DNA of 64,000 bases from Trichaptum fuscoviolaceum (lineage: Eukaryota > Basidiomycota > Agaricomycetes > Hymenochaetales > Trichaptaceae): positions 2,401,424 to 2,465,423 of the forward strand of contig CAJSYZ010000001.1 of assembly GCA_910574455.1 (NCBI GenBank), read 5' to 3'. The translations under genes and the position numbers were made by a program. Below the pieces are notes generated by a model. The model had not been told where the DNA came from, made no database searches, and saw only the letters and a list, made by a program, of their open reading frames with translations. How positions within the stretch are numbered: position 1 is the stretch's first letter; each line of letters begins with the position of its first letter. Below, in pieces: positions 26,108 to 51,446 of the stretch.

Positions 26108-26140
26108 CATCAGGGAAACTACTTTTTGCTTAAGGCGACT
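26108..26140 (+). repeat. left terminal inverted repeat of the large element
   Basis: Begins CATCAGGGAA and continues through CTTTTTG-CTTAAGG. Compared with the reverse complement of 51412-51446, about 27 of 33 positions match with one indel; the first ten bases are identical. Confidence 0.65.
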
Positions 26141-26175
26141 GACGCGTCCTGACGCTGCCTTAAATGGACTGAAGG

Positions 26176-26237
26176 GTTGCTATGCCTGTCTGAAATCTAC
26201 TGATATGTTGCTATGCCTGTCTGAAATCAACTGATGG
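26176..26237 (+). repeat. 31-bp subterminal tandem repeat, two copies
   Basis: Copies at 26176-26206 and 26207-26237 both start GTTGCTATGCCTGTCTGAAAT and differ at three positions. They carry the CTGAAAT-nn-ACTGA motif that recurs near the right end (51290-51410), as expected for subterminal transposase-binding repeats. Confidence 0.75.
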
Positions 26238-26859
26238 CCTGAACACACTGAAATAAGCCAATTTTCAGGACACACTCAGTACGTCAGTACATCAGGAGGT
26301 CAGTCAAGCATAAGTAAAGACTAAGTACAAGCATGTACAATTCAAATGTCATAGTAAGTACAAATCAGTACACCAGTAATTCAGTACGCCAGTATTGTAG
26401 GCTGCGCGCTGCTTTCCTCTCGCCTTCGCTGATAAGGATGTTCATGCTTTTCGTTGTTGGCTGAGCGACTCAAGCACATTTGCCTTGTGCGCTTCGAGAA
26501 TTGTCCGACTTCCGCCCAAGTGGCATATTCTTCCTGACGCCTGAAACAATTGTCAAACATAAATTCCAGAGTTCTTACTACGGGTTTTCGGAGGACTCGG
26601 ACATACTATTTTCAATCTGTTCCGAAAGCAATTTCTCTCTTGTCCGATTGCGCACGTTCTGATCATTTTCCCTCAAGGTCCATGTTCTTGAATTACCCTC
26701 CACCTTGAATGGTCCGCCGTAGCCGCTCGTGTCAATTCTCGTCACCGCAACCTATCGATCTAGCTCTGCTTCTACATCCTTGAGAAGCAGATTGCCTCCG
26801 GTGGGAAGTGGGGGTAGATCTCGGTCTGGAAGTTGTTTGTTCAATAGGGAGTTTTGGTC

Positions 26860-29310
26860 TGACGCCAGAACGATCGGTATATATCGCAAGTGTTCATACT
26901 CCTGGTTTGTTCCTTCTGGATCATCCGAAAAGTGTTTGAGTAAGGCTTTATACTGTAGCTCGAATGCACTTTAACAAGATGACTTACGGCCGTCAGCGAA
27001 TCAACAAGTATCCCATCGATATGTAGGCAACACTCATTATCTGCAACTTCGCTCACGTCGTAAGGCTTCAGAATAAGCTTTGTGATACGCATCACTACAC
27101 CTGTTCGGTCGTCCAGCGTATTGGCAAGCCGGATTTTCTGCTTCGCGAATGCCTGGATCATCGAAAGTACGTTCTCGGTGGACAACTGGCTGATTTAGGA
27201 GGTGGTCGTGAACTTCCCTTGCCCAGCTCGCTCTCAACTCACATCGTCTTATTCCATCAGCGACACAACTCACTTCGATACTGATTGACCAAGGACAGCA
27301 CCACCGTAGTCCTAGATTTAAGAAAGTAAGACCACTACAGGCCGGAACAAATGACTATTCGAGAAGAGCTCACTCGAGTGGTTGATCCATCCCCTCGCAC
27401 GAACGTACCACAGATCAAGTTCACTGTACCTTTCGTAATACCGATACCGTATCCGTGAGACAGAACTCTACCTTCACCATCGAGTCCTTGATGCCAACCA
27501 GACGGCACGACAGCGCAGCATGTCCGTTCCACACGACCTTGCTCGAGGTGAACTTGATAGCGTTGCCGACAATGTTCGTAATGACCTGGCGCAGATGCAG
27601 CGAGTCACCGATGAGCTGATCAGGAATGTCTGGGTAAACATCATATGTGAGGTCGAGGTTGTTTTGCGATGGTCGTACAACGAGAGTCTTGAGGTTACCG
27701 AAAACCGTGTGTCTCAGTGAATACCAAACTTGCTCTATCGTCATCCTGCCTGCTTCGAACGTAGTAATTAATCGAAATATTAGCAACTGAATTCGGAAGC
27801 ATCGGCGGCGGATTAGCTTACTCTTCGAGATATCCAAAATATCGACATTAATCAATAGCAGACTCCGAGCCAAACTATGCACCAGCAGAAGACTCTCGCG
27901 CTGACTCTTATTCAAATTGCTATCCAGCGTAAACTCTTTCATGCCAATGATACCGTTCATAGGGGTCGAATCTCATGAGACGTGTTCGCCAAGAACTCCA
28001 ACTTGGAGCGACTGGCAAGTTCGGCAGCTTCACGAGCGGCGGCGTTCTTCTAAATCGACTCGCGCAAGTAGTGCACAATTTAATTGATTTGATGAGTCTC
28101 AAAGGATTCCATCTCGCCTGAGCCTTTGACGGTGATGAAACACGTGAAGTCGCCGTTTATACTAGTAGCTGCAGTACTGATCTGCGCGAAACCACGCACT
28201 TCGGTCGTCAAGTTTCCGGCCATGGTGTCAACAGCCATTCTATTCGGAGTGCGTTCAGTAAAAACCACACTACACAATTCAGCGGAATGCTAGTGAAATA
28301 AACATACGTGATTTTTTGCTGTGACATGAACATTCTCGATTTCAGCTTGAACACCGAGTTTTTTCGTTCTGACTTCCCGCGCGACTTTGGTCACCCCCGC
28401 AGTGAAGAGAGCCAACTGGTCAACCATGCCATTGATGGCCAAGTCCAGAATATCACCCTGAACAGACACGCCCACGATCTCCTGCGTCAAGTCGCCACGA
28501 GCGACGGTCGTAGTCGCGACAACAATGGTACGCACTTGAAAGTTCACCTGCGTCAAAGAAAAGTGAGACAATTCTCTCCAAGACAAAAGCGCAGCATAGG
28601 TTGACCGCCCATTTGCTGTACTAGTAGTCACAGTCTCGAGCTCCATCGCCCCGCGAAGTTGTCCAGATCAATAATTGTCTAACACATTTAGCTTCGGTTA
28701 GATCTGTGTTGATATGATATGTTTGAAGAGCAAAGTATCCGAAATAGACGCATGTGGTTTCGCTGATGAATAAACCAGTATAAGCCTAGTAATATAATAG
28801 CAAGAAGAGAAGTCCGTACTTATAGTTCCAGAGGCTTCAAAGGTTGCGCTTATTCTCTTCCCTCGCATGCCCTCATAGATGTTCGCCACCGTAGTCCGAT
28901 GCTTGTGAACTAGATGTAGCGCCTAGGTTCACGCTACCTTCCGGCGACTTGCTAGAGATTGGCCGGGAGATGCTGGCAGCTGTTTCATGGAAAGATGTTC
29001 GCCTCGCGTCATCGCGTTTTTCACTATCGGAGGTGTATCACATTCAACTAGAGGTATGAAGGTGTCTCGCAAGACGGTATGAGGTGGTGTTCCGAGGCCG
29101 GGGCCGGGGCCGTCAGCCTGCAATTGACGGACGCGAGATTTACTACGTTGCAATGGCGGTTTCGGCGCAGGAAACTGATATGTGAAGCGAGGGGCATCCA
29201 AGGACACATGCGCAAGGCTGGCGCGGGATCGGTCGTGTAGTTCATCTGCCCCCTCATCAATAGCGTCCTCTGCCACCTCTTCAATCGTCAGCGGACGGCC
29301 CTTGCCCTTC
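26860..29310 (-). pseudogene. decayed group III (Nik1/Os-1-type) hybrid histidine kinase
   Basis: Pieces of a HAMP-repeat osmosensing histidine kinase appear in order on the minus strand. A possible N-terminal region (28929-29300) is followed by HAMP units ([36 protein letters not shown]), the H-box LANTSHEIR with its phospho-acceptor His (about 27970), MNGIIGM, LLLVHSLARSLLLIN, NNLDLTYDVYPDIPDQLIGD, the N-box VGNAIKFTSSK, a G-box remnant (TFVRGDGSTTR, then DYGGAVLGQSVSK) and the inter-domain LILKPYDVSEVADNECCLHID up to EYEHLRYIPIVL. Frames break right after SHEIR (27961-27965) and within the DTGIGI region (about 27440). Several HAMP units and the receiver domain are missing. Intron-like splice sites remain, so capture was at DNA level. 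It lies inside the large element. Confidence 0.8.
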
Positions 29311-30093: not shown

Positions 30094-30965
30094 TCAAGCC
30101 TCGAAGTTCTTGATGTACTTATCCGGTAAGGGTGAGTGGCTTTGGCTCAGGGCCAAAGCTACAGCAAACGTGCTGTGAACGTCAATAGCTGCATCTAGTA
30201 TTCCAGTACAGCAGATCATGCAAGTGAGAACTTGAAGATGGTTGATCTTGAACAACAGAATGATAACTTACACTCTTTTTGTGCCGCTGATAGCTCGTCA
30301 GCTGCCCAGTCACTCATTGTGACCTCACTACTCTTCTTGACGTTCAGCCCTCAATACTTCTCCCACTATTTTTTCGAGCTTGACAGTCGGAGTCGGATGC
30401 TGGAACCAGAGACGAGGGTTTAAGAGCAGTTGGGACCAGGTCGGGTTTTTGGGCCAGACTTCCGGGTAGACAACGCGTGCCCAATCTGTCAGATCGACAC
30501 AGGAGCGCACAGAGGTGCGAAACTTGCGCTTTATACGCACTGCGTCACCTGCCATTTCTTCTGTTAGGCCACCTCGCAGGAGAAAAGATAAGTTATTCAT
30601 ACCGTTGATTCCTGCGGAAATTTTCATGACTGTACCATCCCCAAGGAGTTGCGCCAACGTAGGGGGAAGGTCAGTAAGAGTATGCGTCCTGACTAGATAA
30701 ATGTGGTGTTGAACTGCGAGTTGGATGAGGTCCACGCGATGATTGGGCCCTTCTCCGCCACTTGCCCACTCGATGTCGATCGAGACAAATCTACTAGCTG
30801 GTACCTGTGGCAATGATGCATATATTGCAGTCACTGCATTGTCCACATCCCAGCCCGTGCGACACTGTATCGGAACTATATTATGGAGCCTATATTGATG
30901 TAATTCGGAGAGAGGTGTTGGTGGTACCCCGAGAAGATCAAGAAACGTTTGCAGTTTCTTGTGTA
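30094..30965 (-). pseudogene. 3'-5' exonuclease (DEDDy, WRN-like) with a frameshift
   Basis: The minus strand encodes an RNase D/WRN-type exonuclease fold: FVSIDIEWASGG (motif I, D-x-E), RVDLIQLAVQHHIYLV, TWSQLLLNPRLW, KLEKIVGEVLR, SDWAADELSAAQKEYAAIDVHS (motif III with Tyr and Asp) and a C-terminal PLPDKYIKNFEA. The last two parts join across an intron at 30195-30271. One extra base in the CCC run at 30348-30350 breaks the frame just before KKSSEVTMSDW. Motif II lacks the expected Asp (KISAGINGMNNLSFLL). A candidate first exon at 31013-31136 (starting MFSNLRTILLILLSL) does not join in frame. I read it as a decayed captured host gene inside the large element. Confidence 0.7.
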
Positions 30966-31204
30966 TCTAGCAACAAGTCAGTGTACAGATCTTGATATGA
31001 ATGAAACAAGTACCTTCGTTTGAGCCCTTGCTGTCCACCGTTGAACGAGCTGAAAGCGGAGGACGGTGCGGAGGTGCAGGCGTGCGTAATCAAGGGAGAG
31101 GAGGATGAGAAGGATAGTACGAAGATTTGAGAACATGATTCACGGTGGAATGGCTTGATGATGATCTTGGGGACAATACCCGCTCCCACTTCACACTTAT
31201 ACAA

Positions 31205-34080: not shown

Positions 34081-34301
34081 ATCGTATGAGATGTGGTGAT
34101 CAGTATTTACAAAATATCTTCAAGTTGAAGGTCATATCATCACACAATCAAGCAAGACATAGGCGTTTTATTCAAGAAAAAGACGACACATCATTGTTTA
34201 CTATTATCGGAAAGACAAAGTCGAAACATCATTGTTTATCAGGAAGACAGATAGACTCGACGAAGTTTATACCGTGACCATATACTACGGGTAGTAGTAT
34301 A

Positions 34302-36610
34302 CTAGGACAAGGGCGTCAAAGATTTGAGTCGAGATACGCCTTCGCCGGTAATCCGAAACTCAAATGGCTCTTTGTAATGAGGATTGGAAGGATTCACAAA
34401 TCCTTCCTTGGAACTAGGAGGCTTCCGTGTTTGCTCACGCACTTCCTTTGCCCAGTCCATGCGCAGAGCCAAATAAGACTGAGGTGCCCGACCATAAGGG
34501 CCATGGTTCCCCACTATCTTGCATATCCTTTTAAGCACGTCCTGCTGTTCATAGGTAAAGAGTGGTTCCCCCGCTGTCAGGTGCAGTACGGATGGTGCGT
34601 TTTCTATGAATTTGAAGAGAGATTCGTCGTCACCATAATAATGTCGGTCGTGGATAAGTTTATTCAAATGTTGCCTGAGTGGAGTCTCGTTCATCACCTC
34701 AAAAACGACATGTTCAGAAGACGTAATCATCTGCATCGCGTTGGAAAGGATAACAGCTTTCTCCCTGTGCGTATTTCGCCGCTTCTCCAGATGCAGGATC
34801 TTCGATAATTTTTTTCGGTCTTCGTCATTTTCCGGCCACTTTCGCACTGGCACCGGGACTTCCGTGAGATTCGCCTGCTTGACAACTTCCGCTAGTGTGT
34901 TCAAGGATAATTGGTCGAAAGAAGCTGAGACTTCCTCAAAACTGCGCTGTATATCAGCTGGGAGAGCTTTTGGAGGAAAACCTTTGGCCGACGCATGGGG
35001 TATGTCCTCAGAGCCATAGTATTCGATGTCGCCCTCTTCGGCCATCTTTGCAAAGAATTCCTCGAAATAGAACTTAGGCAGGTCCTTCAGATCGAGGACA
35101 CCCTCTTCTGATGGATCAAGATTTGGGAACGGTTTGCACGTAAAGTCATCTATGCTGGCATCCCATGTGGACTCCTGCTCGTCAAGTGTGGTGGCTGGCT
35201 GTTGTGAATCCAACTTCTTCAGCTTGCGATTGAGGATGACATACAACCTTCGATGGAATTCGAAGATAAGATAGAAGCGCACAAGAAAGAAACGGAACTT
35301 TTCGATGGGTTTTGCGTCAGGCGACGGCTGCCAGGAGTTTGTGAAGGGGTATTTGGATTTAAGCTTTGCTCTCGCGTCCTCTACCAAGCTCTCCAGCCTC
35401 TTTTCGGCTTCCTTCAGCGTCTTGGAGGCCCGGCCCTTCTCTTTGTCACCACACTTTGGGTCATTTGTCGTCTCCACCCTCGCCATTGCTTTGCTTTTCG
35501 CCTTATCCGCGTCCTTGTATGTCGTATCCTCCTCGCGGAAGTCTGCTAACTTGTCTTCAATCCCTGCTAACCACTCTTCGTAGCGTGCTTCCTCTGAGGA
35601 TATGAGGCTTTCAGGTAAAGCGGTGAGCAGGTCATCAAACAGATGCCTTGCAATGGGAACCTTTCCGTCCCGGCGCATGGTTGGTTGGGCAGTGAACTCA
35701 GCGTAAAGCTCGTTTACACCTCTGATGAGCCCCGCTGTCTTGACACCGCCATCACCAGTAATGTCAAAAGGGGCAACCGATTCGATCTTGAATTTGTTTG
35801 GGAAAACAATGGCAAAAGCCATATAAAGAATGTTCCTGGCGTCCTCGAAGACGTGTCGTAGTTTAATACTACAAGCTGCCGCTTCGCTCTATGTGAGAAC
35901 TCATGAGTTTAATTTGTTTTGCAATAGCTTTCAAGATGACTTACCGATTCAGCTGCTACGGCAATGATTTGAAGCTCGCGTATCATGACAGCGAACGATG
36001 CTATAGTCCGCGTCAAAAGGTCGTCTTTGGAGCGGTCCGCCTTCCGTTCAGCATCCAATGTCTGGTCCGCCTTCCGTTCAGCATCCAATGTCTCCAAACG
36101 AGCCAGCTTTTCGTTCATTTGAAGCACCTTGTCGGTGGTGCTTCGAATCATATCAAATTGACTGTCAAGCCTTTTGCTAACATTAGCTGCCATGACGGAG
36201 TGTAGCGCATGGATGCCCTCCTCAGCTGCAGCCCTCGCAAGCATCGGGTAATTCAGGGTTGCCTGGTCCTTTATATGTTGTATCTCGTTGGAGAGAGAAT
36301 CGACTTTCTCCTGCAAGGTCTTTATTGTCTCCGAGTAATCCGTGTTCTCCGATTTGGCCGCCTTTTTTTTCGTGGCTTTCAGATCTTCCCTTTTTTTCTC
36401 AAGATCTTGAGATCCAACATTCCGCATCGCCCGATCCAGCCGTTCATCCACTTTCTGTTTTTCATCAGGATTCGCCGCCCGAGCTGCCGCTCCATCCTTG
36501 AGTTTTGTTATCACCTGGTTGAGAACTTTGGCAGTCTCGACCAGCTTTCCTCCAATGTCCGTCCATTCCTTGCCCGCTTTGTCCAAGTCGCCCCCTATCC
36601 CATTGAGCAT
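34302..36610 (-). CDS. unknown ~750-aa protein with N-terminal coiled coil, 2 exons
   Basis: Exons 35945-36610 and 34302-35888 join in frame over a 56-nt intron (35889-35944) to give 750 residues; the ATG at 36610 starts MLNGIGGDLDKAGKEWTD. Residues ~10-210 are helical and Lys/Glu-rich, with clear heptads (KTLQEKVDSLSNEIQHIK; LQMNEKLARLETLDAERK). A perfect 30-nt tandem duplication (36034-36093) repeats ten residues, TLDAERKADQ/R. The second exon is long, uninterrupted and globular-looking (SIKLRHVFEDARNILYMAFA, FYLIFEFHRRLYVILNRKLK, EVMNETPLRQHLNKLIHD). There are no catalytic motifs, signal peptide or membrane spans that I recognise. The frame is clean, so it is probably functional. It lies in the large element between two motif blocks; a role in transposition or as cargo is unknown. 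Confidence 0.7.
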
Positions 36611-36719
36611 GGTGACTGACAAGTCGCTAGTTGGGTATAGGAAAGAGATAAGAAGCAATCTACACAGACTGGCAATGTCACTCACAGGTTCGTTTTCAAG
36701 TCTTCGACACTGTTTGACG

Positions 36720-37908
36720 GCTTGGAGTCCACGTCCGACCCAGGTTTTGCCACCCCACTGCCAGTGGCACCGGCACTGGCGGCCTCGCTGACAGTAGAAT
36801 GGAATGTCATCAAGATGCAATTAAGCTCAGGCTGGCAACACTACTCACAATTCCAAATTGGATGTGTCTGGTTCCGCCTCAGTGGCAGACGTCAAATTGC
36901 CACTGCCAACTCCTAGTCCGACCTCAAACTCCGATTGTGACCTCAACCCGGGCCCTGCACTTGCAAGAGACTCCGAGTCGGACATGGAGACGCCGGGCCC
37001 ATTCACTGGCAGGCTGTCAAGAGAATGTCCTGGTCACATACTTTGAAGGCTGGCAACATGAATGACACTTACTTGATTGCTGATTTGCCACTGTCATCTC
37101 GCTGTACCAACTGAATGAGAAATTCAATCCATTTCACCATGTCTGACCGCGTCTTTATAAGCTCGGGCCACGGATGGGCTCCATTTTCGCCGGAAGAAAC
37201 TAGTCCTGTTTGGACTTTTTGTGAAAGAATTGAAATTACTACTAATACTAGTTTTTGAGACATGTACTACATACCAGCTCGTCTGGCATCATCTGGACCC
37301 AGTAGCAGCCTGATTTGGATTTGATTGGGAGGCTCAGGTAGCACTGGCATGTTAGCGTGAGGGACAACAGACATTCTGAAGGGATAGTCGTTGAGTTGCT
37401 GGCTTCAAGATGATGTGGGGGGCATCATGATGGGGTCCGCTGCCAGTGGCAACTAAAAGCTATTCACCGTCGGAACGTGAACTTGAAGAAGTTGATGGAA
37501 GTCGGATACTACCGCTGCCAGCAGGCCACACCGTGACTCAGGCTGACGGAGTGCCGTGAAGAGTAGTACTATATTTAAATTTAAGTACTCAGGCTAGTAC
37601 TACTATGCCAGTGATACTACTACTACTAGTAGTAGGACTTCCCAGCCTCACTGGCACTGGCAGTGCCACAGCATGAGTGCACCCGCTGCGAGTAGTACTA
37701 CTACCGTAACTACTAGTACTACTACTACTACTACTAGTACTTACTAGTCGAATTTGAAGTTGATGATCTCAGCAACTTGACAGCTCGGCCGCCGCAGTTC
37801 GCTTCGGAGTCCGAGTCCTCGCCGGATAGTACTATAGTAGTACTATACTTGTTTGTGTTTCACGGCATGATGATGCGGAGGCACCGTGATCATCATTATG
37901 ATGGTACT
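36720..37908. repeat. short inverted-motif block 2 (left part)
   Basis: Same motif families as block 1, here including long runs of ACTACTAGTAGTACT-type palindromes (about 37565-37750) and GACTCCGAGTCGGAC-type words. It overlaps the upstream region of the unknown 750-aa gene. Confidence 0.75.
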
Positions 37909-38291
37909 GGATGCCTTCCCGTAAGGATTTAGGACGACGATTCTTATCCTAAATCCTCTTCCGAATATTATCCGGGAACGGAGCCAACTTTCCGGTCGAC
38001 GTCGGTCGTCCTAAATTACTGAGATCAAGGAAGGGCTCTAAACATTACAGCAGCGTTCTCACATACCATATTTAGTAGAAGTGAAGATTATGTGACGCAC
38101 CCGCTTCCATTTTAAGCAATTTTATCTATGAAAATAATCCGGCAGACCTCACCGTGGCAACCGGAAAGGAATTTAGGACCCGTCCTAGATGTTGCTTACG
38201 GTTTAGGATGGCTGTCCTAAACCTGTACCTGACGGAGTTTCAAAGATTTAGGACAGCCTCCGCCGTCCTAAATTCTTACGGGAAGGCATCC
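37909..38291. mobile_element. 383-bp MITE-like element with 33-bp terminal inverted repeats
   Basis: The left end starts GGATGCCTTCCCGTAAG and the right end is its inverse; over 33 bp there are only two mismatches. The ATTTAGGAC/GTCCTAAAT word recurs inside in both orientations. ACT flanks both sides (37906-37908 and 38292-38294), a possible 3-bp target duplication, though ACT is common in the surrounding repeats. There is no coding capacity. Partial relatives with the same word occur at about 38353-38392, 38514-38552 and 38740-38765. Confidence 0.85.
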
Positions 38292-39320: not shown

Positions 39321-41144
39321 ATGTCAAGTTCTGATCTCGGGGATACTCCAAGCTCTTGCTTGGACACAGACGAGGACGAGGACGGTTCAGAATCCAGCTT
39401 TGGTCTCAACACTCACAGCTCAAAGTCCGCGATCATCGAAGACGAGAGCGAATACGAAGTGTATACAAATCCTGTAGAGGTTAAGTTCGGTAGGACCACA
39501 TATTATCTATATTTCAGTGTGTGGTTTGGCTTATCTTCAATGACTTGTCAGAGGACCTACCCTTTGGTTATCGCTCGGGAGCATATATCGATAGCACGGT
39601 GGTCCAGTCAATCACCAAAAGCTTAGAGTCCAAGCTAGAGCATGCAAATCGCTTCGGGTTTTCGTCGAACGATTTCAAGGAAACACTTGTTCTGGCTGAT
39701 CGGCTGGGGAGGTACTTTGATACGTCAAATCAGTATATCAGTAACCGGGTTAGGGAAGCACAGGCTCTGCAGAGGAAGACGGCTGTGATGCTAGACCAGT
39801 TTCGGATCAGTACATACCAGTACACGGACATGATCTTCAAGCTAGGTGAAGAACTAGCTATCCTGATGCGTTATACGGTAAGCTGCAAATTAAATCAAAA
39901 GCTTGAATGCACGTCTCTAACCGCTTGTTCTTATGGTAATGCGCTATAGCCCGAGGAGCCACTTGAGCTGCTTATCCGCAAGCGTGTGGAGGAATCAAGA
40001 TTGCTGTCGCCACGGCGTTCATATCTGTTCTTCCCGGCTTTTTCCCGTCAGGGAAACTCATCAATGTTTTCACTGGGGACGTCATCTGGGATAATTTCTT
40101 GTCTTGCTTAGTCGCCCGATATCATTCACACCATGCAATCGTGCGTTGGCAACGTAAATTTGAGGATGAGGAGGCCGGCAATCGATTGATACAGACAAAA
40201 TCTGTCTTTTCTGCCATAAGGATCGACATCAAAGGCACAAAGCTCGAGGAAAATGTTCGTCGTGAACTCTCTGCTCAATTGAAGCACTTTACGCCAGTCG
40301 TGGGCGTGAATCTTAAAGGCTCTACAAGCAGGCCCCGAAACCCAAGGCTTGCGCTCAAGTTCTTTCTCCCCCTACTTATTTGGTCATATAACGAGTGCAA
40401 GGATTGGATCGTCTTCCTAGACAAATGCCGGCGGAACAATTGCCAAAGTCGCCCGTTGGTCAACTCTCAGAAGCAGAAGTCAATTGTTCTGCGACTCAGG
40501 CGACTCCGACTGTCTTTCAATCCGGAACAGCACGAGAGGCTCGGCGTCGATGGAAACGTGAACTTGAACGTGCCGGTGGAGAAGCTGCTCTAGCTGACTT
40601 TCATCGACTCATTCAGAAGTCAATGGATATTCTTGGCGTCGACTCGGCTGATGGTGGAACGTCCTCATTGGAGAATAATCGACAAATCCAGCGCGAATAC
40701 GGAAATTATTCGGTTGTTCTGCGCAGGTTCAACTGGATCAGGAAATGTTTAATCATCCTCTGTGATGATTCGCTTCTGGATCTGTTGCTCATGAATGATG
40801 GTGCAATGCAGCGCTTCTCCAGGGAGATGGACTTTGCTAGGCTGGGCATTATCGAAGTGACTCGAGCCATTAGGCAATTTGACGATGCTGATCGCAAAGA
40901 TATAGACAAGGAAAGACTCGACAGGGCCGCCGAATTTCTCCACGAAGATATGGAACACATCGATCATGCCCTTATTCCGGCAGAGCAAATTTTTGACTCT
41001 TTACTCCTGAAGACAGTCGACGATTTACTTCGTAATTATGGTCCATTTTATTTAACAGATTATGGAATCCTATTTGCTCTTCTCGACAAATTGGATCCCA
41101 TCACGGACACCGACTCGGATGTCAATATGAGCTCGGCGATGTAA
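39321..41144 (+). CDS. unknown multi-exon protein, helical
   Basis: I do not recognise this gene. The best model starts at 39321 (MSSSDLGDTPSSCLDTDEDE, acidic N-terminus), splices at 39480-39517 (only 38 nt, the weakest join), and continues through a helical region (GYRSGAYIDSTVVQSITKSL, NQYISNRVREAQALQRKTAV). It then splices after LMRYT (donor at about 39879) to PEEPLELLIRKRVEESRLLS, once or twice more around 40050-40110 and 40370-40430, and ends with a long exon to 41144 (REARRRWKRELERAGGEAAL, RKCLIILCDDSLLDLLLMND, ending DSDVNMSSAM). The exon frames look truly coding, but several joins are uncertain. It is divergent from the 750-aa gene and convergent with the transposase gene, with repeat blocks on both sides; the two unknown genes may work as a pair. 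Confidence 0.55.
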
Positions 41145-41149
41145 CTGGC

Positions 41150-41900
41150 GGTTGCATATTGGACCATTCCCCGACACGAAGTGTTCTAGGGTTCACCAGC
41201 GCGCGATTCAAGTTTAAGTTGTGGCCGTGTTAAATTTTTATTTCGTTTTACTATGTTTATGACAAAAGTCAAGGACTCGGATTGTACTAGTACTACTCAT
41301 TCTATGCCAGTGCTTACTCCCTTTTCAAGTTTAACTTAAAGCTCCTCTCGCACTATGCTGCACTATTGGTAGTTAGTACTAGTAGCAACTATGTGACATC
41401 GTTTTCTTGATTACTACTATATACTGCAAAAAAATTATTTATTTATTCATAGCATATGCTTCAAGTTGATAGTACTACCGTGACTAGTACTACTAGTAGT
41501 CTGTGTTCAACTTGAACTTCAACTTCAAGATGGTTAAATTAGAACTTGAAGTAGTACTAGTAGTAGTAGCAGCCTGAGGCAGGTTATTGGTTCATTTCCA
41601 GTTGTTGGCAAGTTCCATGTTATTGTACACTTTTTACTTGAAGTTTTCTATGTTCATACTAGTAGTACTAGTACCAGTAGTAGTAGTACTCAGCCTGAGG
41701 CTGCCAGTGCACTGCAGCAGTGGGAAATTTTGACCACTGCCACTGACAGTGGCATCCGACATGATCCAACTTGAACTTGAAGTCTAAGATGCACCGACTA
41801 GTAACACTACAATTCTAGTATAGCTAGTACCATAATCCGTCACTGAACATTTAAATGTTATATCCTTACTTCATAAGTTTCAAGGTACTTTGTGAGCTAA
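41150..41900. repeat. short inverted-motif block 3
   Basis: Non-coding spacer between the convergent unknown gene and the transposase gene. It holds ACTAGTAGTACT palindromes, CTTGAACTTCAACTTCAAG, and GCCTGAGGCTGCCAGTGCACTG-like words of the same families as the other blocks. Confidence 0.75.
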
Positions 41901-41914
41901 ATGAGGGTTTATCT

Positions 41915-44900
41915 TTATTGTTGCCTACTTTCGTACAATGTTTCATGCATGTGCATGTCAGCAAATCGGTTAACATAGAATCTATTGTAAAAGTCCAGGG
42001 ACTCCTCAGGTGTCAATGACTTCGGAGGACATTCATCACCCTCTGGAACCCCAAGGAGGTGAGCTAAACGGAAGATACTCCCTAGAGCTATCACGGATAA
42101 CTTTGGAGTTTTTGAGTCACCGTGACGGGGGTAGCCTGACTCCGAGTCGGAGGTGTCATTCAGGTCACTCCGGCGAGTCCGAGTCAGCGGTTGACGGCAA
42201 CTTCCAATAGTACTACGCTGGCACGCGGTAGAGGTCTCTGACTCATACTCTGGCTCGACTATCCACATTCTTGTTTTTCTGTCAGGTGAGTCTCCAACGT
42301 TCTTGAAAAACTGGACAAGGGCGCATTCCTGACGTTCTCCATTGGCGGTGAAGGAGAAAAGAAGCATAACCCGAGCAATTCGCATCCCTGCAAACCCCTT
42401 TTTGCGAGAACTAACTTGGACAAGAACGACATCACGTCGTGGTTTTCCGCGCCAAGAGGGATTGGACCTGATCACCTCCCTCATTGCTTGCTCTATAGGA
42501 ATTGATTCGCCGCGGTAGGCGAAATACGCGGTAGCTGAATGGAAGATGGCAATGTCATTGCCCATGTCCAGTGCAAACTGTTGTTCGGCTATCAGGCTTT
42601 CAGAAGCGCTTCCGAGGTCATAGTATCCTAATTCGTTCAAGTTGCACCTTTCGTACTTGCAGAATAAGTATATTTTGATGAGTCGTCGGAGCTGTCGGAG
42701 TTCCGGATGGCCTTTTATCGCCGCAAGAGCGTTGAGCTGTTTGGGGTACAGCTTACTGGACTCTGTAAGGATAGCAACGAATAAGTCAGATATCCAGCGC
42801 CACAATTTGAAGCTCGTGTTACTGACGTTGTTTCGAAGCCATTAACATCAAGCTCGAAGGATCACTTCTACCACCTAAGCAAAACCGATGTTCTGTATTT
42901 TCCACATCATGAAGAACAACACTACTTTGCAGTCCTTCCACTGATGAAGTGCTGAAATCATCCAGGTCAGCAATTTCGTTGTGCCCTTGATTACCCACAG
43001 TGCCATCGAAGAAATCATCTGTATCATTGGCTGCTCCTGCCACACCAATACACTGCAACTGCTCCCTCTGATTCGGGATCCTCTCAGCATCATCCTCCTC
43101 CGGCTCTGACATATTCTTCCGCAGAACATCTCGCAAAACTTTCCACGTAGCCTCGGATAGCGTATCGTCTAGCATTCCACGCCGTTTGAAGTCTGACCTC
43201 GATGCAATAAGTTTGCTGAGTCGTTGGTTTGCTGTGATCATCTGGCCCAAGGGATCATTTCTGTTCGAGCGTCGCCACGTTTCTTTGACCGCATAAATAT
43301 GTTTATTCTCTGTAATCGATGAACACAGCCCGCTCGGTGCAGCAAACAGAGGGATCAATGTTGGATAATGGACCATAGCATGCTGTCGTGGTAGTGAAAA
43401 GTTATCCCGGATGCCCTTAGCTATGAATATTTGCCGATAACGGTGAAAGTGATCCAAAGAGGCTTTGATTTGATCAAGAGTTGAGGCTGTAATCGTGTAC
43501 CGACGCACAAGGTAACAGAAGTCTAGAAATGCACTTAATGTGCGAATCATATCATCGTGTGCAATGCCCACGATAGCCGGAAGATACACCTAAGCAAATT
43601 GCATCAAATATCAGCAAACCACTGCCTCGAACAAGATAAAAAGGTCACATACTTTCATAAGTGCCTTAGAATCATTGCCTGTCCATTGCTTGAAGCCTCG
43701 GCCTTCGGGGAATCTGCGAAGTCCAGGAAAAGGAGCAGCAACTCTGATTCTACGCGGATGTTAGCAATGGTATTTACATTAAACAACTTGCGAAAAAAAT
43801 CACCTTTTATCCACAATATCCAGCTCTGACGTGGTCAAGCTCTGACATATCCACTCGACAAGATGATCCTTGAACACGCCTTTGATGATTTGGTGCAGCA
43901 GGTCCGGAGATATGAGATCGCATATATCTGCGCGTGGAATGTCATTGGTGAAAGGCTACGGAGCAACGTATCAGTTGCAATATACGCATCCAATGAATAA
44001 TTTGAAGCACGTACCACAATGTCCTGGTGGAATCCGTACTCTTTCCGAATTGTTGCTTTATTCATGTTGTTGGCGTCTACCTGTTCTATCAATCGTTCGT
44101 GCAGCTCTTTTGTTCGAGGAATTGATACAAATTCCGGATTATCGAGGTCCTTGTGAGGCGCTGTGCATCTATAATGTCGAAAGTAAGTCATCACCACAGA
44201 GCTTGATTTCAGGAAAGCCTGAGGGCGGTAGTACTTACTTGCAGCACCATCCAGTACATATGGCGCAAAGGCTGACCTGTTCCGGATAATCGGCTATATA
44301 TGAGCCGAGTCCGAAAACCGACCTACGCAAGTGACCATCAGGGCACCGGAGAATGGTTTTCTGAGTGTTCATGATCATTGCGGATTTCAGCGAGATTAAG
44401 ATCCTCGATATAGACGAATGAAAGATCTGATGTCGAAAGTGCCGGAAGTCATCTGACTTTTCGTATTGCCGCTCAGCTGCAAAGCATCAGAAGTCAATTG
44501 AATAGATCACTATTAACACATACTCTTTGGTATTGCCAGAAATGCTATGAGCTGGACTGTATTCAGTTTCTGGGACCGCCGGGCCTTGTTTGATACATTC
44601 CCAATCGAGAGATACAAAGGATAGTATTCATTATTGCCAGTTCCAACAGAAACCGTTGTCTTATCGCTCCCTAAAATGACCGGGACGAACATAGATCCAT
44701 GGACTGCTTTATCTTCTGCGTAGATCTTGTTCTAAGTCAAGGATAATAAGTATCTGTGCGAGTTAATGAGTCATGACTTACAGCCTGTTCCCAAGCAAAA
44801 TTCCCGGACATGTAATTTCTGAAAACTCGTTCTTTGTCATTGATATTATTGGTGTCCTCCTTTGTCTGAAATTCACGAAACGGGACAAAGTCAAATTCGC

Positions 44901-45993
44901 CTTCTAAAGCCGGGTTATCCACCAAATTTCGGATTACTTCCAAAGGATCCCGATACCATACATCATATTCTTTCCTCTTCCATGACTCGATGTTCTCGTT
45001 TGTCGCTTTTTGGCCATTGTCGTTAGTGTAGAAGTTACTGAAGGATTTCCAAGATACATCACCGACTTTTGTAGTGTCAATGATCTTGTACAAATTTTGT
45101 GCATCTCCATCGAGCAGTGCACCAGCTGTATCCAGACTTGAGTCATCATTGGGATCTGTCGCGTCCAATTCGGGATATCTAATAGATTTTGCGTTCTCCG
45201 TGGACTGAATTAGTTGATAAGCCTTCATAATTCCGAGAAGCTTTGTTATGTTGCCAGCAGACATTTGCTCTTCGCGATAGAGAAAATCTGCGAGCTCGAA
45301 ATCTGCTCGGCACGAATAGGGAAACCAGTCATTTGACGCAGGTTCGTTCCGTGAAACGGGCGGTTCTTCCTTTTCTAAGAAGTTCCCTTCTTCATCGCAT
45401 GGAGTGGCTGCACGATATTTGGTGTCAGAATGCTAAAGTAAACTGGGGACATCATACTTAGCGCGCACCATTTAAATATCTGTGATACACCTTTAAGTTA
45501 TCATTGTTCTCTTCATAATCTCCAATGTCGGAGTCCAGATCAGCAGAAGATGGTCTTGGTCTTCAAGTTCGTCATCTCCAGTGTCAGCATGGGACAGGCA
45601 ATCAGGACCGTCTAAATCTTGAAGCAGCTCGTCTCGGCCTATGCTAAGCATCGAGATATCCTGTGTGAGTATAGAAATGTCGTAGTCGTAACTTGAAGAG
45701 TTGCAGCCACTTTCATCTTCATGATGGCCCTCCAAGTCTGTTGGAAGTTCAGGAGAGCCGGGAAGAGCTTGAGGTGTCGAAGGTCGTGCGGGTCGCTTGG
45801 GTGAGGAATCCAAGTCGTAACCACAAGCAGCAGGTCTTGTTGCAAATGATGACGGGTGAGCTGAATATTCATGTCTTGTCCTTGCGGATTGATTCTTGAA
45901 CCTCCTGCTGCAGAAGGAGAAGGTGCATCGAATAGTCGGGGGGAAGATATCTGTAAGATGAACGGGTTTGGGCCTTCGCCGAGTTACCGGCAT
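41915..45993 (-). CDS. Plavaka-family transposase, nearly intact, multi-exon
   Basis: Transposase of the Plavaka group (CACTA-related cut-and-paste elements of basidiomycetes). The N-terminus has one C2H2 zinc finger (RCTFSFCSRRFKNQSARTRH). Family blocks follow in order through several short introns: CDEEGNFL, ADFLYREEQMSAG, RKEYDVWYRDPLEVIRNLVD, NYMSGNFAWEQA, VPVILGSDKTTVSVGTGNNE, YYPLYLSIGNV, FGLGSYIADYPEQ, CTGWCCKC, PFTNDIPRADICDLISPDLL, GLRRFPEGRGFKQWTGNDSK, VYLPAIVG, FSLPRQHAMVHYPTLIPLF, GLCSSITENKHIYAVKETWRR, then a C-terminal domain (SNPSWRGKPRRDVVLVQ, MRIARVMLLFSF, MWIVEPEYE). Only two joins are doubtful: the one after the zinc-finger exon is off by one base unless a further intron exists, and one near 42820-42890 needs a 62-nt intron. 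It is likely active or recently active. Confidence 0.85.
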
Positions 45994-46470
45994 TAGTTCC
46001 AGTAAATTGAACGCTGAATTTAAAGTTGAATGGCACGCTCAGCGGTGACGCCCGCGTAGTAACAACTTGAAGTTAGTAGTACTACTAGTAGTAGTACCGG
46101 TAGCCTGAGTAGCCACAGCCTCAGGCTGTCAGTGACTCAGTGGCACCGCCGCCAGCCTGCCAGTGAGCCTGCAAGTGCCAGTGAGTAGTACTAGTACCAG
46201 TAGCACTGTGATAGTACTAGTAATAGAGCTAGCCTGAGTATCCGAGTGTCCAAGTCCGAGTCTGAGTCAGGCTCATTCCGAGTCAGCCTAACTTGAAGGC
46301 TGCCAATCACTGGCACTGCCAGTGCCAGCAAGTGCAAGTGGGCGTAAATTTTCCTTGAATAGGCGCCCTCATCTCCAACTTCAACTACAACTTGCACCTT
46401 TGCCAACTCGATTCACCATCGAAACTCATAGCACCTGTCAGCGTGCCTCGACTTGAAACACTGCACAAGA
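45994..46470. promoter_or_regulatory. shared divergent promoter packed with inverted motifs
   Basis: This is the 477-bp gap between the divergently transcribed transposase and accessory genes. It contains AACTTGAAG, a perfect ACTACTAGTAGTA palindrome, CAGCCTCAGGCTG, repeated CCAGTGnnnnCAGTG words and GACTCGGAC-type words. Such motif-rich regulatory DNA between a transposase and a second gene is what CACTA-type elements use as binding sites; that reading is inference. Confidence 0.6.
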
Positions 46471-49400
46471 ATGTCAACTCGAAGACAAACGCGGGCTAAG
46501 AATAGCAATCAGCACCCGGGAGCCATAGTCAATAAACTCAGAACACGTCGAACGAAAGAGGAGGTATTGAGGGAGAAAGAAGAGAAGGAGAGAAGGAGAG
46601 AAGAGCAGGCCTCAAAGCGTGGTGAGGCATTGAGGGAAAAGGAGGAGAAGGAAAAACAGAAGGAAGAACGGGCAGCTCTGCGCGAAGCTGCGGCTCAACA
46701 AGCCGCGGATGCGAGAGAGAAGAGAAAACTTGATGCGGAACAGAAACGGGCAGCAAAAGAACAAGAGGCATCTGAGAAGGTACGCAAAAAGAGAGCTGCA
46801 GCAGAGCAACAGGAAACAGCAATACTGGAGACGATGGAGCTTGAGAAGAATTTGTCGAAGGCTCTTGACATTCGCACCCAGATGGGCTCAACTGCACCTA
46901 AGCTGGCTGGCACTGACAAACGAGGGCTAAAAAAACCGAAAGACACTCCTGAAGCTAGTGAGTCCTTATCTTCAAGACAGCGACAGTCGAGTTACCAGAT
47001 ATTGGCATTGCAGGTTCAACGAACGAGGAAAAAGACAGCTTTTGTGAAGCTGAAGGCAATGCAAACTTTTATGTTCGTAAGTTGCATTACCTTTACGACT
47101 TTAGGTTTTGAAAGATGAACATATTGACTCACGTTATGATGCAGCCAATTCCGATGGACCAGATAGAGAGCGCGCAAAAAAGGCGAGGAAAAAGGACACC
47201 AGAGGTGCACTTCCTTTCCGTACTTGTGTGCAGGGCGCAAAGGCTTCAAGTCGTATCATAGGAGGCACTGGCTATCATAGTACGCTTGCAGGACAGGACA
47301 GCAGTCTTTCTGGTGAGGATACAGACATGATAGACTCGCCCAATACGTCGAAACGGAACGATAAGACAAAGCGACCTGTCAGGGCACTTCGCAACACAGA
47401 TGGATCCACTTTCTTCGGCGGAGAGGGCAGAAATCCTGAGATCGCAAGGAAGATAGTAGAAGATATTGACTTGTGAGTTTGAAGTCGTACTACTCAACCG
47501 TTCGCATCATAGTACGAAAGATGAGTTTCAAATTCAAACAAATTCAAGTTGATAGTAAGTGTGAAGCTTGATTTAAACTCAGCTACTTGAAGCTTATCAT
47601 TGTAGTACTACTTACTACTACTACTAGTAGTACTAGTACTGATAGCTTGAATGCGCCCGCCACTGCCAGTGGCAGTTTGAGCGTGCCACGCGTGCGCCAG
47701 TGACACTGCCAGTGGCAGCGACCGTGGCGGCCCGGCGGGTCACCGCCGTGCCACACTTCTTCAAGATCATCATGAACCCGAACGTTGCAGCTTCTTCACT
47801 TATAATGCTCACATCCTTATCTTTGTTTCAAGTTGTGAGCCTGGCTGACACAAGGAAAATTTAGGCTCCCCGCCTCGGTGCAAGAGGATGCAAACTTTAG
47901 TCCTTGGGAGGATGAAGGAGAGACAGTAACCCTCACGAGTTTTCAAGGTGTAAAGAATAGCTTTGCGAGCGAGCGACAGACGGCACATCTTGTTGACTCC
48001 GACACTGATAATGTGAGTTGGTTAAAGCATTCATTAGACTGGCAGATGAAATCTTAATATTTTGATTGTGCGTTTAATTAGGACGCGAGGAGACTTACAA
48101 TACCGCCCCAAGCCAATGTGAGTGCCGCTTAAAGTTCAAAGAAATCGTTCGATTCACAGAGACTATGCATCGGTGGAGTCCCATGCACAACGATGGCTAA
48201 TTAACAATGTTTCTGTATCGTATCAGGATGGAGCCAGCAATAAATCGAAGAAAAGGAAGCTATCCCGCGACACTCTCTCCGACTTGCAGGCTCCTACAAC
48301 GTTGGTAAGTGGCATCATAATGTCTTGCTTCGTTCGCGCTACTTATCCTTCCTTCTTTGTGCTCTGGAGAAGAAGAATATCAGGAGACAATCGGCCGTTC
48401 AGGTGAGTGTTTCACATCAAAGCATGGATCTGGTGCCGGACTTTCTTGTGTCCTTCGGCGTCGACATATCTTTACTTCATTACTTACCAAACCGTACTCT
48501 GAATAGGGCGCGAAAATGCAGAGAATCGCCAACTCCCAGCTTGATGTAACGGTAAGTTTATTCTGCTTTTACCCCCTCACTACTCACCTGTCATCTCGTC
48601 AGGAGGGTATTACTGTCGATGGACATAGAGAGCAATCGCCGGCGTTGTATCTGCAGATGCAGGTATGTGTAGGCATCGACACTCAATAGGACAACTTTCT
48701 GCACCCCTTTCTTTGGCAAGGATCTGGTCGTCTACTAAGCTTTGCTTATTGTAGGACAGCATGATCGCGAATAATAAGAAGAGGAAGTCACCGCCGGACT
48801 CTAACTCGCATGCCGTGGTAATTCTTGCATTTCCACCCAATATTCAGATCACTTCCTTACTATCTAAAACAGACTAGCATGAACGTGTATATGAAGAAGC
48901 CGTCATCACAGGCTGCCTCGACAGTTAGTGTTAATCCTTCTAATCTCCATTTCATATCATTTCTGATTAAGCAACAAGGATTTGAACCTCACTACTAGTA
49001 ACAAGAGTAAACTGCAAGACAGTCATTCTCAGGCTGATATACTGGTATTCAATTCTCTTCGAGCTTTTCTTGGTAACAATTCCTCTAATTGCTACAGATG
49101 AAATCTTCTACTTCTATTCGCAATTTGAAGAGGTCTCTGGCGGCTCATGCGCAACATATTGCAAGTGTGAGCTAATTGCTGCAATTGATTCGTGTACTAA
49201 TTCAAGGCTCCTTTAACAGGCAAGTGGTTGTGAGGTGTCGCTAACACCACGAGCACAATCACCTGCGATGACGACAGTATCCATCAGTCCTGAACCCGAA
49301 GTGCTCGCAACCAAGGCTCATCTTGGTCATCGCAAAGTCTCTCGGACTACTAGCTCTGTGCGTTAATCAAATCATGTCTATGATATACATCCACTAACTT

Positions 49401-50842
49401 GCAGAAATGCAGACATCTGTAGGGCTTGAGGACAAGGATAGAAATAGTATCGGAAGGGAGGGATCCCGCGCTCCCGGCAAAAAAAGGGCAACGAATCAGT
49501 GTCTCCCTCCCGGAACTCAGGCAGGCTGGACTCACATTCTTCTGCCTTCGCTGTATCGCGCAGTTGGAAAGTCCACAACTCCATGGCAAAACCCGGACAA
49601 TAAGTCCATCGGAGCCTTGTGGGGGAAGGTGTTTGATTCTGTCGAACTTAGTTACGACACGCAATTGGCCGACATCTGTTCTTTAGTTGAGTCATCCCTT
49701 ATTGTCTTTCATCGGCCATTTTGAATCAAGTATGATCTGCCCTGTAGGCAGCCCAGAGATGCTCTGATAGTTGGCGCAAGAAATTGTTCGAGAAAGCCGA
49801 ACAATCAATTTCGAGTTTCGTCGGCAACGAGCGTTCTAAGTCGGTGGAGACCGAAGAAATTGTGAAGATGTTGCAGACGATGGTCGACAAGAAGAAAGCT
49901 GAACCATTCCTCTGGGAAAGCTGGCATAGTATGGATAAGGTATGTAAAAATTTGCCCCATGTCACCCTTCGTATCCCTGCATTGACTCTGAAAGTACAGA
50001 AGCAAGGGTTGTTCTGCTCTGATCTTGTAATCTCAGTGTTGTCCGTACACCTAGTCTTGGCCCTGGGTCGGCATAAAGTACTGGATAAAAACACAATAGG
50101 AAAGCCTATCGGTGCCCTCGCTCTTGCGGCAACCGCGGTATCTATCTACTTCAGTTCTTATAGTGGCTTTATTCGCTGAATTTCTCATGAACAGGTCAAG
50201 GTTGCAATCGACAAGCAAGTGGCCCGGTTGCAAAAGATCAAAGAAGAGTTTGGTGGCGCTGAGTGGTACTTCACCAGTGCTCTGTGGCAGCCTCATACGG
50301 ACGACTATGTTAACTTATTGTCGAATTCCTCGTTTTTTACTGAATCAAACTGGGAGAAGGTCCGATCCCGCCTAGCAGCTTACAATTCCATTGAAGATTT
50401 TAGTGCGGGAAAGAACACCGAACTTGTTGGATCGGGTGTCACTGGCAGGGATTTCTCCCTGTATCTTGACGTTGGAGACGCGGATGCGAGCGGCGAGTAT
50501 ACATATGGCGAGGGCGCTACTAGAAGTAGTAAGTGCAAGGAGGATAAGGATAATGACGGCGAAGAAGTCGAGGATTTCAAGGATAGGGAAGACGATATGG
50601 AGGACGAGAGTGTGCTTGGCGAGGGAGACGAGGTCGAGGACAAGGATCAGGAGGAGGACAAGGATCAGGATCAGGATGAGAACAAGGATGCGGACGAGAA
50701 TTTCAGCGTGGGTTATGGACGCAGTGGAGGTTTTGAGGGCGAGGAGAATGACGCAGGCAGAGAGGACTGGGAAGGTGAGGGCGATCGCGAGGAGGACGAG
50801 GGTTCATTATGGGATTCGGCTACGGACGGCGCAGACTTTTAA
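46471..50842 (+). CDS. transposon-associated accessory protein with many small exons
   Basis: Starts MSTRRQTRAKNSNQHPG; a highly charged coiled coil follows (about residues 30-130, EEVLREKEEKERRREEQ...). Then comes a long intron (47473-47864) filled with the same inverted motifs, a run of about ten tiny exons (for example DARRLTIPPQAN, DGASNKSKKRKLSRDT, EGITVDGHREQSPALYLQMQ, DSMIANNKKRKSPPDS), and a conserved-looking domain (LPPGTQAGWTHILLPSLYRAV, SLVESSL, NKxxIGKPIGALALAATAV, EEFGGAEWYF). It ends in a strongly acidic Asp/Glu tail (about 50500-50840). From memory it resembles an expanded, uncharacterised Agaricomycete family. The divergent pairing with the transposase suggests a TnpA-like helper role, but this is inference. 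An alternative last exon may extend to 51015. Confidence 0.6.
47473..47864 (+). repeat. inverted-motif block inside an intron of the accessory gene
   Basis: This 392-nt intron (GTGAGT...TTTAG) is several times the usual intron length here. It holds ACTACTACTAGTAGTACTAG, GCCACTGCCAGTGGCAG and TTGAAGCTT-type words identical to those in the spacer blocks. Flanking exons join in frame. Confidence 0.65.
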
Positions 50843-51064
50843 GAGCAGGTCGATCTCTGGTGAGCTTCGGCTTTGACCCATCACCCCGCCACTGTATTCA
50901 AGCTCTTACTACCATCAACTTGCAGTGGCATTCGTTCTCTGAATATGCCGAGGAACAGCCTGCCAGCGAGGCAGAAGTGGCAAAATACAATCTGGTTCAG
51001 GATGCCGTGGTGTAGCTACTGAGGGACCGTGACACTGATGCACTGATTTCTACTTATTGTCTTA

Positions 51065-51274
51065 AATTACTTGTGGAAATGAAGTAATTCTGGAACCTCT
51101 TACGCACTTACACGCTTGAGTACTGCAAACCGACAGACAAAAAAGTCTGCTTATATGATTAAATGATGAATTACTTATGGAATGAACTACTTGAACCCCT
51201 TACAAACTTATACACTTGAGCACTGCAATTCGAATGCCAGAAAAAAACTTCTGATATGCTTGAATGCTGAAGAC
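51065..51274. repeat. ~105-bp imperfect tandem duplication near the right end
   Basis: 51065-51168 and 51169-51274 are two diverged copies: both begin AATTACTTnTGG, share CTTAnACnCTTGAGnACTGCAA, and end TGATGAA/TGCTGAA. It lies just inside the right end of the large element, next to the CTGAAATCAGT subterminal motifs. Confidence 0.75.
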
Positions 51275-51411
51275 TGAATGCCTGAAGTACTGATTTAAGT
51301 CGACGGCACTGATTTCAGCAGGCCCCTTCCTGAATAATGAAACCACATGCCTGAAATCAGTAAATCAGTAGAATTTCACTTCCCAGGGCTTCAGTAAATT
51401 TCAGACCGTTT

Positions 51412-51446
51412 AAGTAACCTTAAGTGAAAAAGAAGATTCCCTGATG
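51412..51446 (-). repeat. right terminal inverted repeat of the large element
   Basis: Read on the minus strand it starts CATCAGGGAA and continues through CTTTTTCACTTAAGG, matching the left end at 26108-26140. CTGAAAT/ATTTCAG motifs follow inward at about 51290-51410. Confidence 0.65.

Follow-up and report, generated by a model that had tools for sequence, protein, structure and literature searches.

When giant transposons with cargo are discussed in fungi, the subject is usually Starships. Starships are gene-carrying elements of the Ascomycota and have a tyrosine recombinase (PMC12134995); the element described here is likewise large, gene-carrying and fungal, but it has a DDE transposase, inverted ends, a 2-bp target-site duplication and dozens of copies, and no tyrosine-recombinase domain was present among the open reading frames (ORFs) scanned. 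It occupies 25,339 bp (positions 26108–51446) of a 64,000-nucleotide stretch of the Trichaptum fuscoviolaceum genome (assembly GCA_910574455.1, contig CAJSYZ010000001.1, positions 2,401,424 to 2,465,423; "the window" hereafter means this whole stretch). We read this block, with a probability of about 0.9, as a single PlavakaB-lineage DNA transposon of 25.3 kb. On this reading it has a transposase gene of its own and has recently multiplied to dozens of copies. An earlier note, made from the letters of the window alone, had proposed a cargo-carrying Plavaka transposon at this place.

PlavakaB, a lineage of the CMCT clade, is described as having 5'-CATCA..TGATG-3' termini, a 2- or 3-bp target-site duplication, and C(2)C and H(3-4)H motifs (PMC12730594); some PlavakaB families of Agaricomycetes have in addition a TET/JBP gene (Kojima 2025, PMC12730594). 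The present element has the PlavakaB features that were tested, and differs in its giant size and its cargo: 25.3 kb, with a captured host fragment and several additional genes. No TET/JBP dioxygenase was matched among the element's ORFs and gene models given to Pfam, which were a subset of its ORFs. The comparison with published Plavaka covers ends, target-site duplication, motifs and gene content. The accessible sections of the literature searched (PMC12730594, PMC9674265, PMC8290104 and PMC8955403 among it, with subscription papers mostly outside its scope) hold no description of a giant or cargo-bearing Plavaka.

Size by itself is not unprecedented. EnSpm/CACTA families of the red alga Chondrus crispus are enlarged to 16–20 kb with four to five ORFs (PMC6431247). 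Like the present element they are DDE cut-and-paste transposons of the same wider clade, enlarged by extra ORFs; unlike it they belong to another lineage and kingdom, and the element here is larger and has sister families with common cargo. Pack-TYPE (Pack-CACTA) elements of plants are non-autonomous and carry host gene pieces inside a terminal-inverted-repeat transposon (PMC8903248). Captured gene fragments lie within inverted-repeat ends here too (from a histidine kinase in the window element, and Glyco_transf_5 in a sister family), but a transposase gene accompanies the captured fragment, its model open in the window copy, though interrupted in a second copy. Gene-carrying fungal Helitrons reach up to 14 kb (PMC6431247) and resemble the element as fungal DNA transposons that pick up host gene fragments; they are smaller, and replicate by rolling circle. 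Lastly, the VANC proteins of VANDAL elements combine conserved with highly variable regions, and their binding sites are short motifs within non-coding tandem repeats (PMC5735166, PMC10398659). A predicted fast-evolving accessory protein beside dense short non-coding motifs is found here as well, an analogy of anatomy only.

A DDE element of a mushroom-type fungus that moves 25 kb, orphan genes and a captured host fragment included, means that a Plavaka-type transposon can move whole gene blocks. The size limit of spreading cut-and-paste elements, the ways in which cargo is acquired and traded, and the cause of the diversifying change in an element-borne gene among copies within one genome become testable.

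Paired ends and target-site duplications

The left end of the block starts with CATCAGGGAAACTACTTTTTGCTTAAGG at 26108 and the right end, inverted, is CATCAGGGAATCTTCTTTTTCACTTAAGG, finishing at 51446. As the earlier note had seen, the ten initial bases are identical, a CTTAAGG block is common to both ends and the sequence outside is ordinary host DNA; the CTGAAAT-nn-ACTGA motifs that it named lie inside the left end. The flanking genes match RTA1 (expectation value, E, 4e-54), TRAPPC10/Trs130 (E 1e-100) and ALG3 (E 2e-95). To that account we add a 2-bp duplication, AA, around the block.

The genome searched for both ends comprises 59.1 Mb in 12 contigs. A 42-bp pattern of the left end matched at 105 places with up to two mismatches (66 exact, five with one mismatch and 34 with two) and a 41-bp pattern of the right end at 80, all exact; the backwards-pattern controls matched nowhere, and the ends are thus well beyond chance. 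Among the matches listed, ends occur on all 12 contigs. Each end was paired with the nearest one in correct orientation within 90 kb, using the 100 listed of the 105 left ends and all 80 right ends. This gave 64 correctly oriented pairs, with the left end exact in 59, one mismatch in four and two mismatches in one. Nineteen pairs are 25,336–25,444 bp long, seven are shorter (22.2–24.9 kb) and 38 longer (25.6–75.6 kb).

Both flanks were read for 18 copies and the window copy, and a matching 2-bp duplication is present in 18 of the 19: TA in eight, CA in four, AA in two, TG in two and GA in one, together with the AA of the window. A second complete copy (C1:4909960-4935295) aligns to the window element from end to end in one alignment of 25,358 columns, at 99.61% identity. 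That the block is a single element, which the earlier note had only surmised, is shown by the recurrence at other sites of the same ends in the same orientation, with the 25.3-kb spacing and 2-bp duplications.

The copies are nearly identical. Ten-kilobase left regions were fetched for 20 of them: 12 are unbroken over 8 kb at 99.7–99.94% identity to the window, eight are interrupted, and the longest matching piece is 99.5–99.94% identical in all 20. The transposase region is 100% identical (rounded) in all 36 places that were scored out of 377 candidates, and 32 of the 36 are complete. Mean pairwise divergence is 0.07% (13 sequences, 7.9 kb), with CpG transitions accounting for 19 of 38 substitution calls. 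Judged by this near-identity, the spread of the element is recent. The summed spans of the window element's family (family A) and a sister family (family B, below) come to about 5% of the genome, a figure that counts in nested insertions and some overlap of spans.

We also considered variable cargo as the cause of the longer copies. Three of the eight interrupted left regions resume after a foreign stretch with an overlap of 6, 7 or 10 bp, as expected if these are nested insertions, and five show no resumption within the stretch read. On the 20 regions covered we rejected the idea, as these three interruptions look like nested insertions.

The transposase and the PlavakaB lineage

A spliced model of the transposase gene, in an earlier version of 1147 residues, contains the Plavaka domain PF18759 with an E of 4.1e-91, in agreement with the earlier note. 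Homologues with E <= 0.001 number 1084 among 7,992 scored candidates; the best 120 all have PF18759 and come, where named, from species that we take to be basidiomycete fungi. A scan of prokaryote genomes with one transposase exon found no relative. The motifs GSD, IAD, CCKC, HAMVH and ITE follow one another in this order, and among the best 120 of the 1084 homologues their key residues are almost invariant: both D residues in 119 of 120, the two C residues in 119 of 120 and 114 of 118, the two H residues in 119 of 119 and 118 of 119, and the E in 119 of 120. The assignment of the D and E as catalytic is our own reading of the alignment. The model is open in the window copy, with all catalytic residues kept. 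Compared with family B, the ratio of nonsynonymous to synonymous divergence (dN/dS) is 0.20 and 0.27 for two exons, at a synonymous divergence (dS) of 0.61 and 0.70; on these figures the transposase has evolved under purifying selection between the families.

Within Plavaka the element can be placed more narrowly. Its termini are of the CATCA..TGATG kind (CATCAGGGAA at 26108, TTCCCTGATG ending at 51446), its target-site duplication is 2 bp long, and C(2)C and H(3-4)H stand between the second D and the final E. On the basis of termini, duplication and catalytic residues, rather than a tree, we assign it to the PlavakaB lineage. The features of the element are collected in Table 1.

Table 1. Features of the element and its target site (window coordinates).
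Feature	Coordinates	Strand	Basis
Target-site duplication, left copy (AA)	26106..26107		AA flanks both sides
Left terminus and subterminal repeats (CATCAGGGAA..., CTTAAGG, CTGAAAT-nn-ACTGA)	26108..26310	+	Sequence; genome matches to 42-bp end
Broken histidine-kinase gene fragment (HisKA and start of HATPase; interrupted frames)	27421..28667	-	PDB, Pfam
Cargo block common with 20-kb sister family, 90-98% identity	29883..33137		Pieces from three sister copies: 98.3%, 96.1%, 90.8%
Open frame, 212 aa, weakly 3'-5' exonuclease-like	30328..30966	-	Pfam E 0.011 (below family cut-off); PDB E 0.075
Orphan gene g34 (model of 867 aa in five exons; no interruption in either full copy)	34302..37140	-	Splice model of this analysis
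Hypervariable segment of g34	35309..35591	-	Substitution clustering between two full copies
Largest of the palindrome-rich spacers (motifs of the TACTAGTA, TAGTACTA and GGCACTGCC types)	37141..39320		Motif counts
Gene g39, orphan, modelled 520 aa, five exons; position of gB in sister family	39321..41144	+	Splice model of this analysis
Palindrome-rich spacer, g39 to transposase	41145..41914		Motif counts
PlavakaB transposase, modelled 1168 aa, C2H2-like N-terminus, D/D/C(2)C/H(3)H/E	41915..45993	-	Pfam PF18759; splice model adjusted to ten homologues
Palindrome-rich spacer, transposase to divergent accessory gene	45994..46470		Motif counts
Accessory gene region divergent from transposase (models 46471-47476, 49407-50842)	46471..50842	+	Weak match to DUF6532 (E 0.002, under cut-off)
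Right terminus and subterminal region (...CCTTAAG...TTCCCTGATG)	51170..51446	+	Sequence; 80 exact genome matches to 41-bp end
Target-site duplication, right copy (AA)	51447..51448		Matches left copy

Cargo and sister families

The earlier note counted two decayed host-gene copies in the element, and one of them is confirmed: 27421–27972 matches a histidine kinase sequence in the PDB (E 2.5e-15), with HisKA (7e-4) and HATPase_c (0.003) in Pfam, both under cut-off. That 28290–28667 belongs to the same gene is our own reading only, no Pfam or NCBIfam match having been obtained for this piece. The second copy is weaker, for the exonuclease-like frame is open and its matches are marginal (Table 1).

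Between the two kinase stretches of the fragment, at 27749–27822, there are about 20 extra residues that look like a retained intron. If they are, genomic DNA was captured and not a spliced copy.

The left ends with two mismatches belong almost entirely to a sister, as 28 of the 29 among the matches listed are those of family B. This 20.0-kb family has 33 exact left ends and one with a single mismatch, 40 exact right ends, and 31 pairs, 17 of them 20,037–20,214 bp long. Its left part holds a different captured gene, Glyco_transf_5 (E 1.4e-8). The transposases of the two families share 77% DNA identity over 41921–43566, and g34 had no blastn match in family B within the 8 kb read, from the shared block into the transposase. 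Across the exonuclease-like frame, which lies in the block common to both families, dS is 0.10 and dN/dS 0.64 (measured on a different family B copy than the transposase comparison). Set against the transposase values this low dS indicates a common block far younger than the divergence of the two transposases, and the simplest reading seems to be that cargo was exchanged between the families, or captured by one from the other.

Further relatives are present in the genome. Matches to the family B right end within three mismatches number 199; the 159 besides the exact 40 carry one to three mismatches, and the 60 of these that were listed have one common variant. A third family, C (L055 and L056), has 72–79% DNA identity to parts of the accessory region and, at L055, 71% to the transposase start. 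A fourth class of left end is represented by 17 matches.

Orphan genes

Two orphan genes, g34 and g39, stand between the left-hand cargo and the transposase, and neither contains a Pfam domain above that domain's own cut-off. The earlier note had described two intact unknown genes; both are open in the window copy, but of the two only g34 stays open in the other complete copy, where the g39 frame is interrupted. The divergent accessory gene of that note holds in outline, with two models on the strand opposite the transposase that may be parts of one gene.

In family B the place and strand of g39 beside the transposase are taken by gB, modelled at 572 residues, which is weakly similar to g39 (BLASTP, 64 residues, E 4e-4). 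Used as a query, the g39/gB alignment gave one homologue among 7,995 scored candidates, a near-identical relative of gB; for g34 there are two among 7,997, with the source tag 'lgn'. The sole homologues of g34 and gB found (P0001, P0002 and P0123) are on short contigs tagged 'lgn' and are 84–98% identical, from which it would seem that other sequenced samples contain this element or close relatives of it.

Part of g34 is a hypervariable segment. The two full copies of the element differ by 60 substitutions over 25.3 kb, and 29 of these fall within 283 bp of g34, where 0.67 are expected; in 2000 uniform shuffles the segment received at most seven. Counted in frame, nonsynonymous changes between the window and second copy amount to 27.2 and synonymous ones to 0.8 (P 0.011, one pair). 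For a third allele the same counts are 20.2 to 0.8 relative to the window (P 0.048) and 6 to 0 relative to the second copy (P 0.24, not significant), the three comparisons being mutually dependent. In the remainder of the main exon, 452 codons long, there is a single change of each kind. Both relatives from the database repeat the pattern: identity to the window is 56/73 and 44/73 residues in the segment, and 427/430 and 380/429 outside it. Length changes in the segment are of 3 and 9 bp.

Across the genome, 40 of 64 candidate places were scored for the segment. Relative to the window, 20 are identical (100%, rounded), five are at 92–93%, two at 91% and three at 90%, while ten are at 90% and 9 bp shorter. 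All five places of the 92–93% class (C5:7675819, C4:2183060, C3:875453, C7:5629632 and C11:1755318) lie near unpaired right ends, which suggests that this class marks an A-like subfamily whose left end or cargo differs. Members of the 9-bp-shorter class are found in normally paired copies. Taken as a whole, the segment looks like the product of diversifying selection on a discrete set of alleles.

What might these genes do? On present evidence both orphans, like the accessory gene, probably work for the element and not for its host. The likeliest role for g34 and g39 would be a fast-evolving, copy-specific interaction with host silencing, with host proteins or with the element's own spacer motifs. 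Two other accounts deserve consideration. On the first, g34 and g39 would be trapped passengers, taken from the host or from a foreign source, that decay slowly and play no part in the spread. Their lack of a domain above cut-off and near lack of homologues fit this account, as do the absence of g34 from the part of family B that was read and the interruption of g39 in the second full copy. Against it stand a g34 that is open in both full copies, differs outside the segment at only one of 452 main-exon residues and changes length within it by 3 and 9 bp, and a g39-like gene kept in the same place in family B despite strong divergence. We consider passengers a genuine possibility, if not the one we favor.

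The second account denies selection altogether: the variable segment would reflect short gene-conversion tracts or differences between subfamilies. The changes do form discrete classes, and the 92–93% class, with its five places, looks like a subfamily. Neutral change, however, predicts about 21% synonymous differences where 0.8 of 28 were found (P 0.011, one pair), and the 9-bp-shorter class sits in ordinary paired copies. Conversion without selection is on balance unlikely, although gene conversion may still be the supplier of the variants on which selection would act.

Palindrome-rich spacers

The genes of the element are separated by palindrome-rich spacers with a characteristic set of motifs. 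The 8.7 kb of spacer hold 30 copies of ACTAGT, the 11.8 kb of gene spans none and the 38.7 kb of host sequence one; for TACTAGTA the window has 27 copies where 0.51 are expected, and all but one of the 27 lie inside the element. The two full copies differ by three 6-bp insertions or deletions, all in the largest spacer, and each adds or removes one motif-like unit. The spacer motif is rare in both loci of the third family. In the genome, TAGTACTACTAGTA is found 611 times compared to nine for the backwards control; among the first 100 places listed, 49 lie in the spans of families A and B (5.4% of the stretch covered) and 51 elsewhere. Some of the sites outside A and B recur in clusters, possibly marking other families.

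These motifs invite an analogy with VANC, in which g34 or g39, or both, would be sequence-specific factors for anti-silencing or self-recognition that bind the TACTAGTA-type spacer motifs. The concentration of motifs in the spacers, the three 6-bp differences, each of one unit of spacer-motif letters, and the combination in g34 of a conserved body with a variable part under apparent diversifying selection are all consistent with such factors. Against this, Pfam detected no DNA-binding domain in g34 or g39, the motifs may serve as hairpin-forming terminators or be left over from small elements, and 51 of the first 100 listed sites fall outside paired copies of families A and B. Such a role for g34 or g39 strikes us as doubtful.

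Outside the paired copies of both families, TAGTACTACTAGTA also occurs in triplets of near-fixed spacing (about 3.4 kb and 520 bp), at C1:2563766-2567718, C1:3592934-3596890, C1:4539902-4543851, C1:4669328-4673293 and C1:5013659-5017611, a hint of a further repeated element that shares the motif. Inside the largest spacer, at 37905–38295, there is a 51-bp inverted repeat, 82% complementary and with 289 bp between its arms, possibly a small nested element; GTCCTAAAT repeats are nearby.

Mechanism of spread and alternatives to transposition

If the block is a PlavakaB transposon, its transposase would bind the CATCAGGGAA ends and the subterminal CTGAAAT repeats, excise the element and insert it into a 2-bp target. 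Copy number would rise when the donor site is repaired or replicated, and elements with interrupted frames would depend on enzyme from intact ones. The left third acts as a cargo bay, collecting host-gene pieces – the histidine kinase here, the glycosyltransferase-5 fragment in the sister family – and blocks common with sister elements. One of the products g34, g39 or the accessory protein may help to evade silencing, or to tell copies apart, by way of the spacer motifs. A bolder proposal is a modular giant design, with swappable host cargo at one end and a fast-diversifying orphan gene that recognizes the spacer motifs or shields them from recognition. We offer this design tentatively, as something we would not expect to hold. 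If true, fungi would have, independently, a counterpart to the sequence-specific anti-silencing of plants, and anti-silencing would let elements of 20–25 kb reach dozens of near-identical copies.

Several observations weigh against a recently spread, self-sufficient transposon. An empty site was looked for in the same genome with the joined flanks of two copies and not found: those of one matched their own halves only, those of the second their own halves and partial repeats. Sixteen of the 80 right ends are unpaired, as are eight of the 71 left ends that match exactly or with one mismatch, and some of the long pairs may be wrong matches. One copy, L015/L033, is flanked by AG and CT, the sole exception among the 19. 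The second complete copy has single-base insertions, two in the transposase, one in g39 and one in the 49407–50842 model, and its exonuclease-like frame is one base shorter, g34 and the 46471–47476 model being open; these are real mutations or sequencing error, and the share of autonomous copies hinges on which. All splice models are predictions made from the sequence in this analysis; in the window copy every gene model is free of internal stops. The roles suggested for g34, g39 and the accessory gene draw on evolution and anatomy. The two predicted structures were poor (mean predicted local distance difference test score, pLDDT, 38 and 32); only residues 101–179 of the g34 exon, which include most of the variable segment, were modelled with fair confidence, as helices.

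Could the copies be segmental duplications or assembly repeats rather than products of transposition? Over 400 bp, the left flank is common to L016 and L017 (98.8%) and to L022 and L023 (99.3%), and these shared flanks indicate that a few copies were duplicated along with neighboring DNA. Of the 19 joined flanks compared, however, only those two pairs show such matches. The flanks of L021, L025, L029 and L048 are partially or weakly similar to other loci, in two cases because a sister element adjoins. With 2-bp duplications at 18 of 19 copies and listed ends spread across all 12 contigs, duplication is a very improbable source for the family as a whole. Least credible of all is that two smaller elements happen to face each other, or that a small one sits within unrelated host DNA, the 25-kb unit being accidental: the ends do diverge past ten bases and leave 16 right and eight left ends unpaired, but 64 of the 80 right ends are in same-orientation pairs, none under 22 kb and 19 of them differing in length by no more than about 110 bp, the second complete copy keeps the order throughout, and duplications match across the pair. 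On the pairing of ends we reject separate smaller elements.

Two loci of the transposon family have unusual arrangements. At C11:2441161-2467001 (L047, L048) the initial 287 bp of the copy are tandemly repeated at the left end, and a left end of the fourth class lies about 200 bp beyond the right end, possibly an abortive self-insertion. At L029 (1984–2002; C3:4500379-4500437) the right end of a sister family is 8 bp from a left end of family A, so that two giant elements stand almost back to back.

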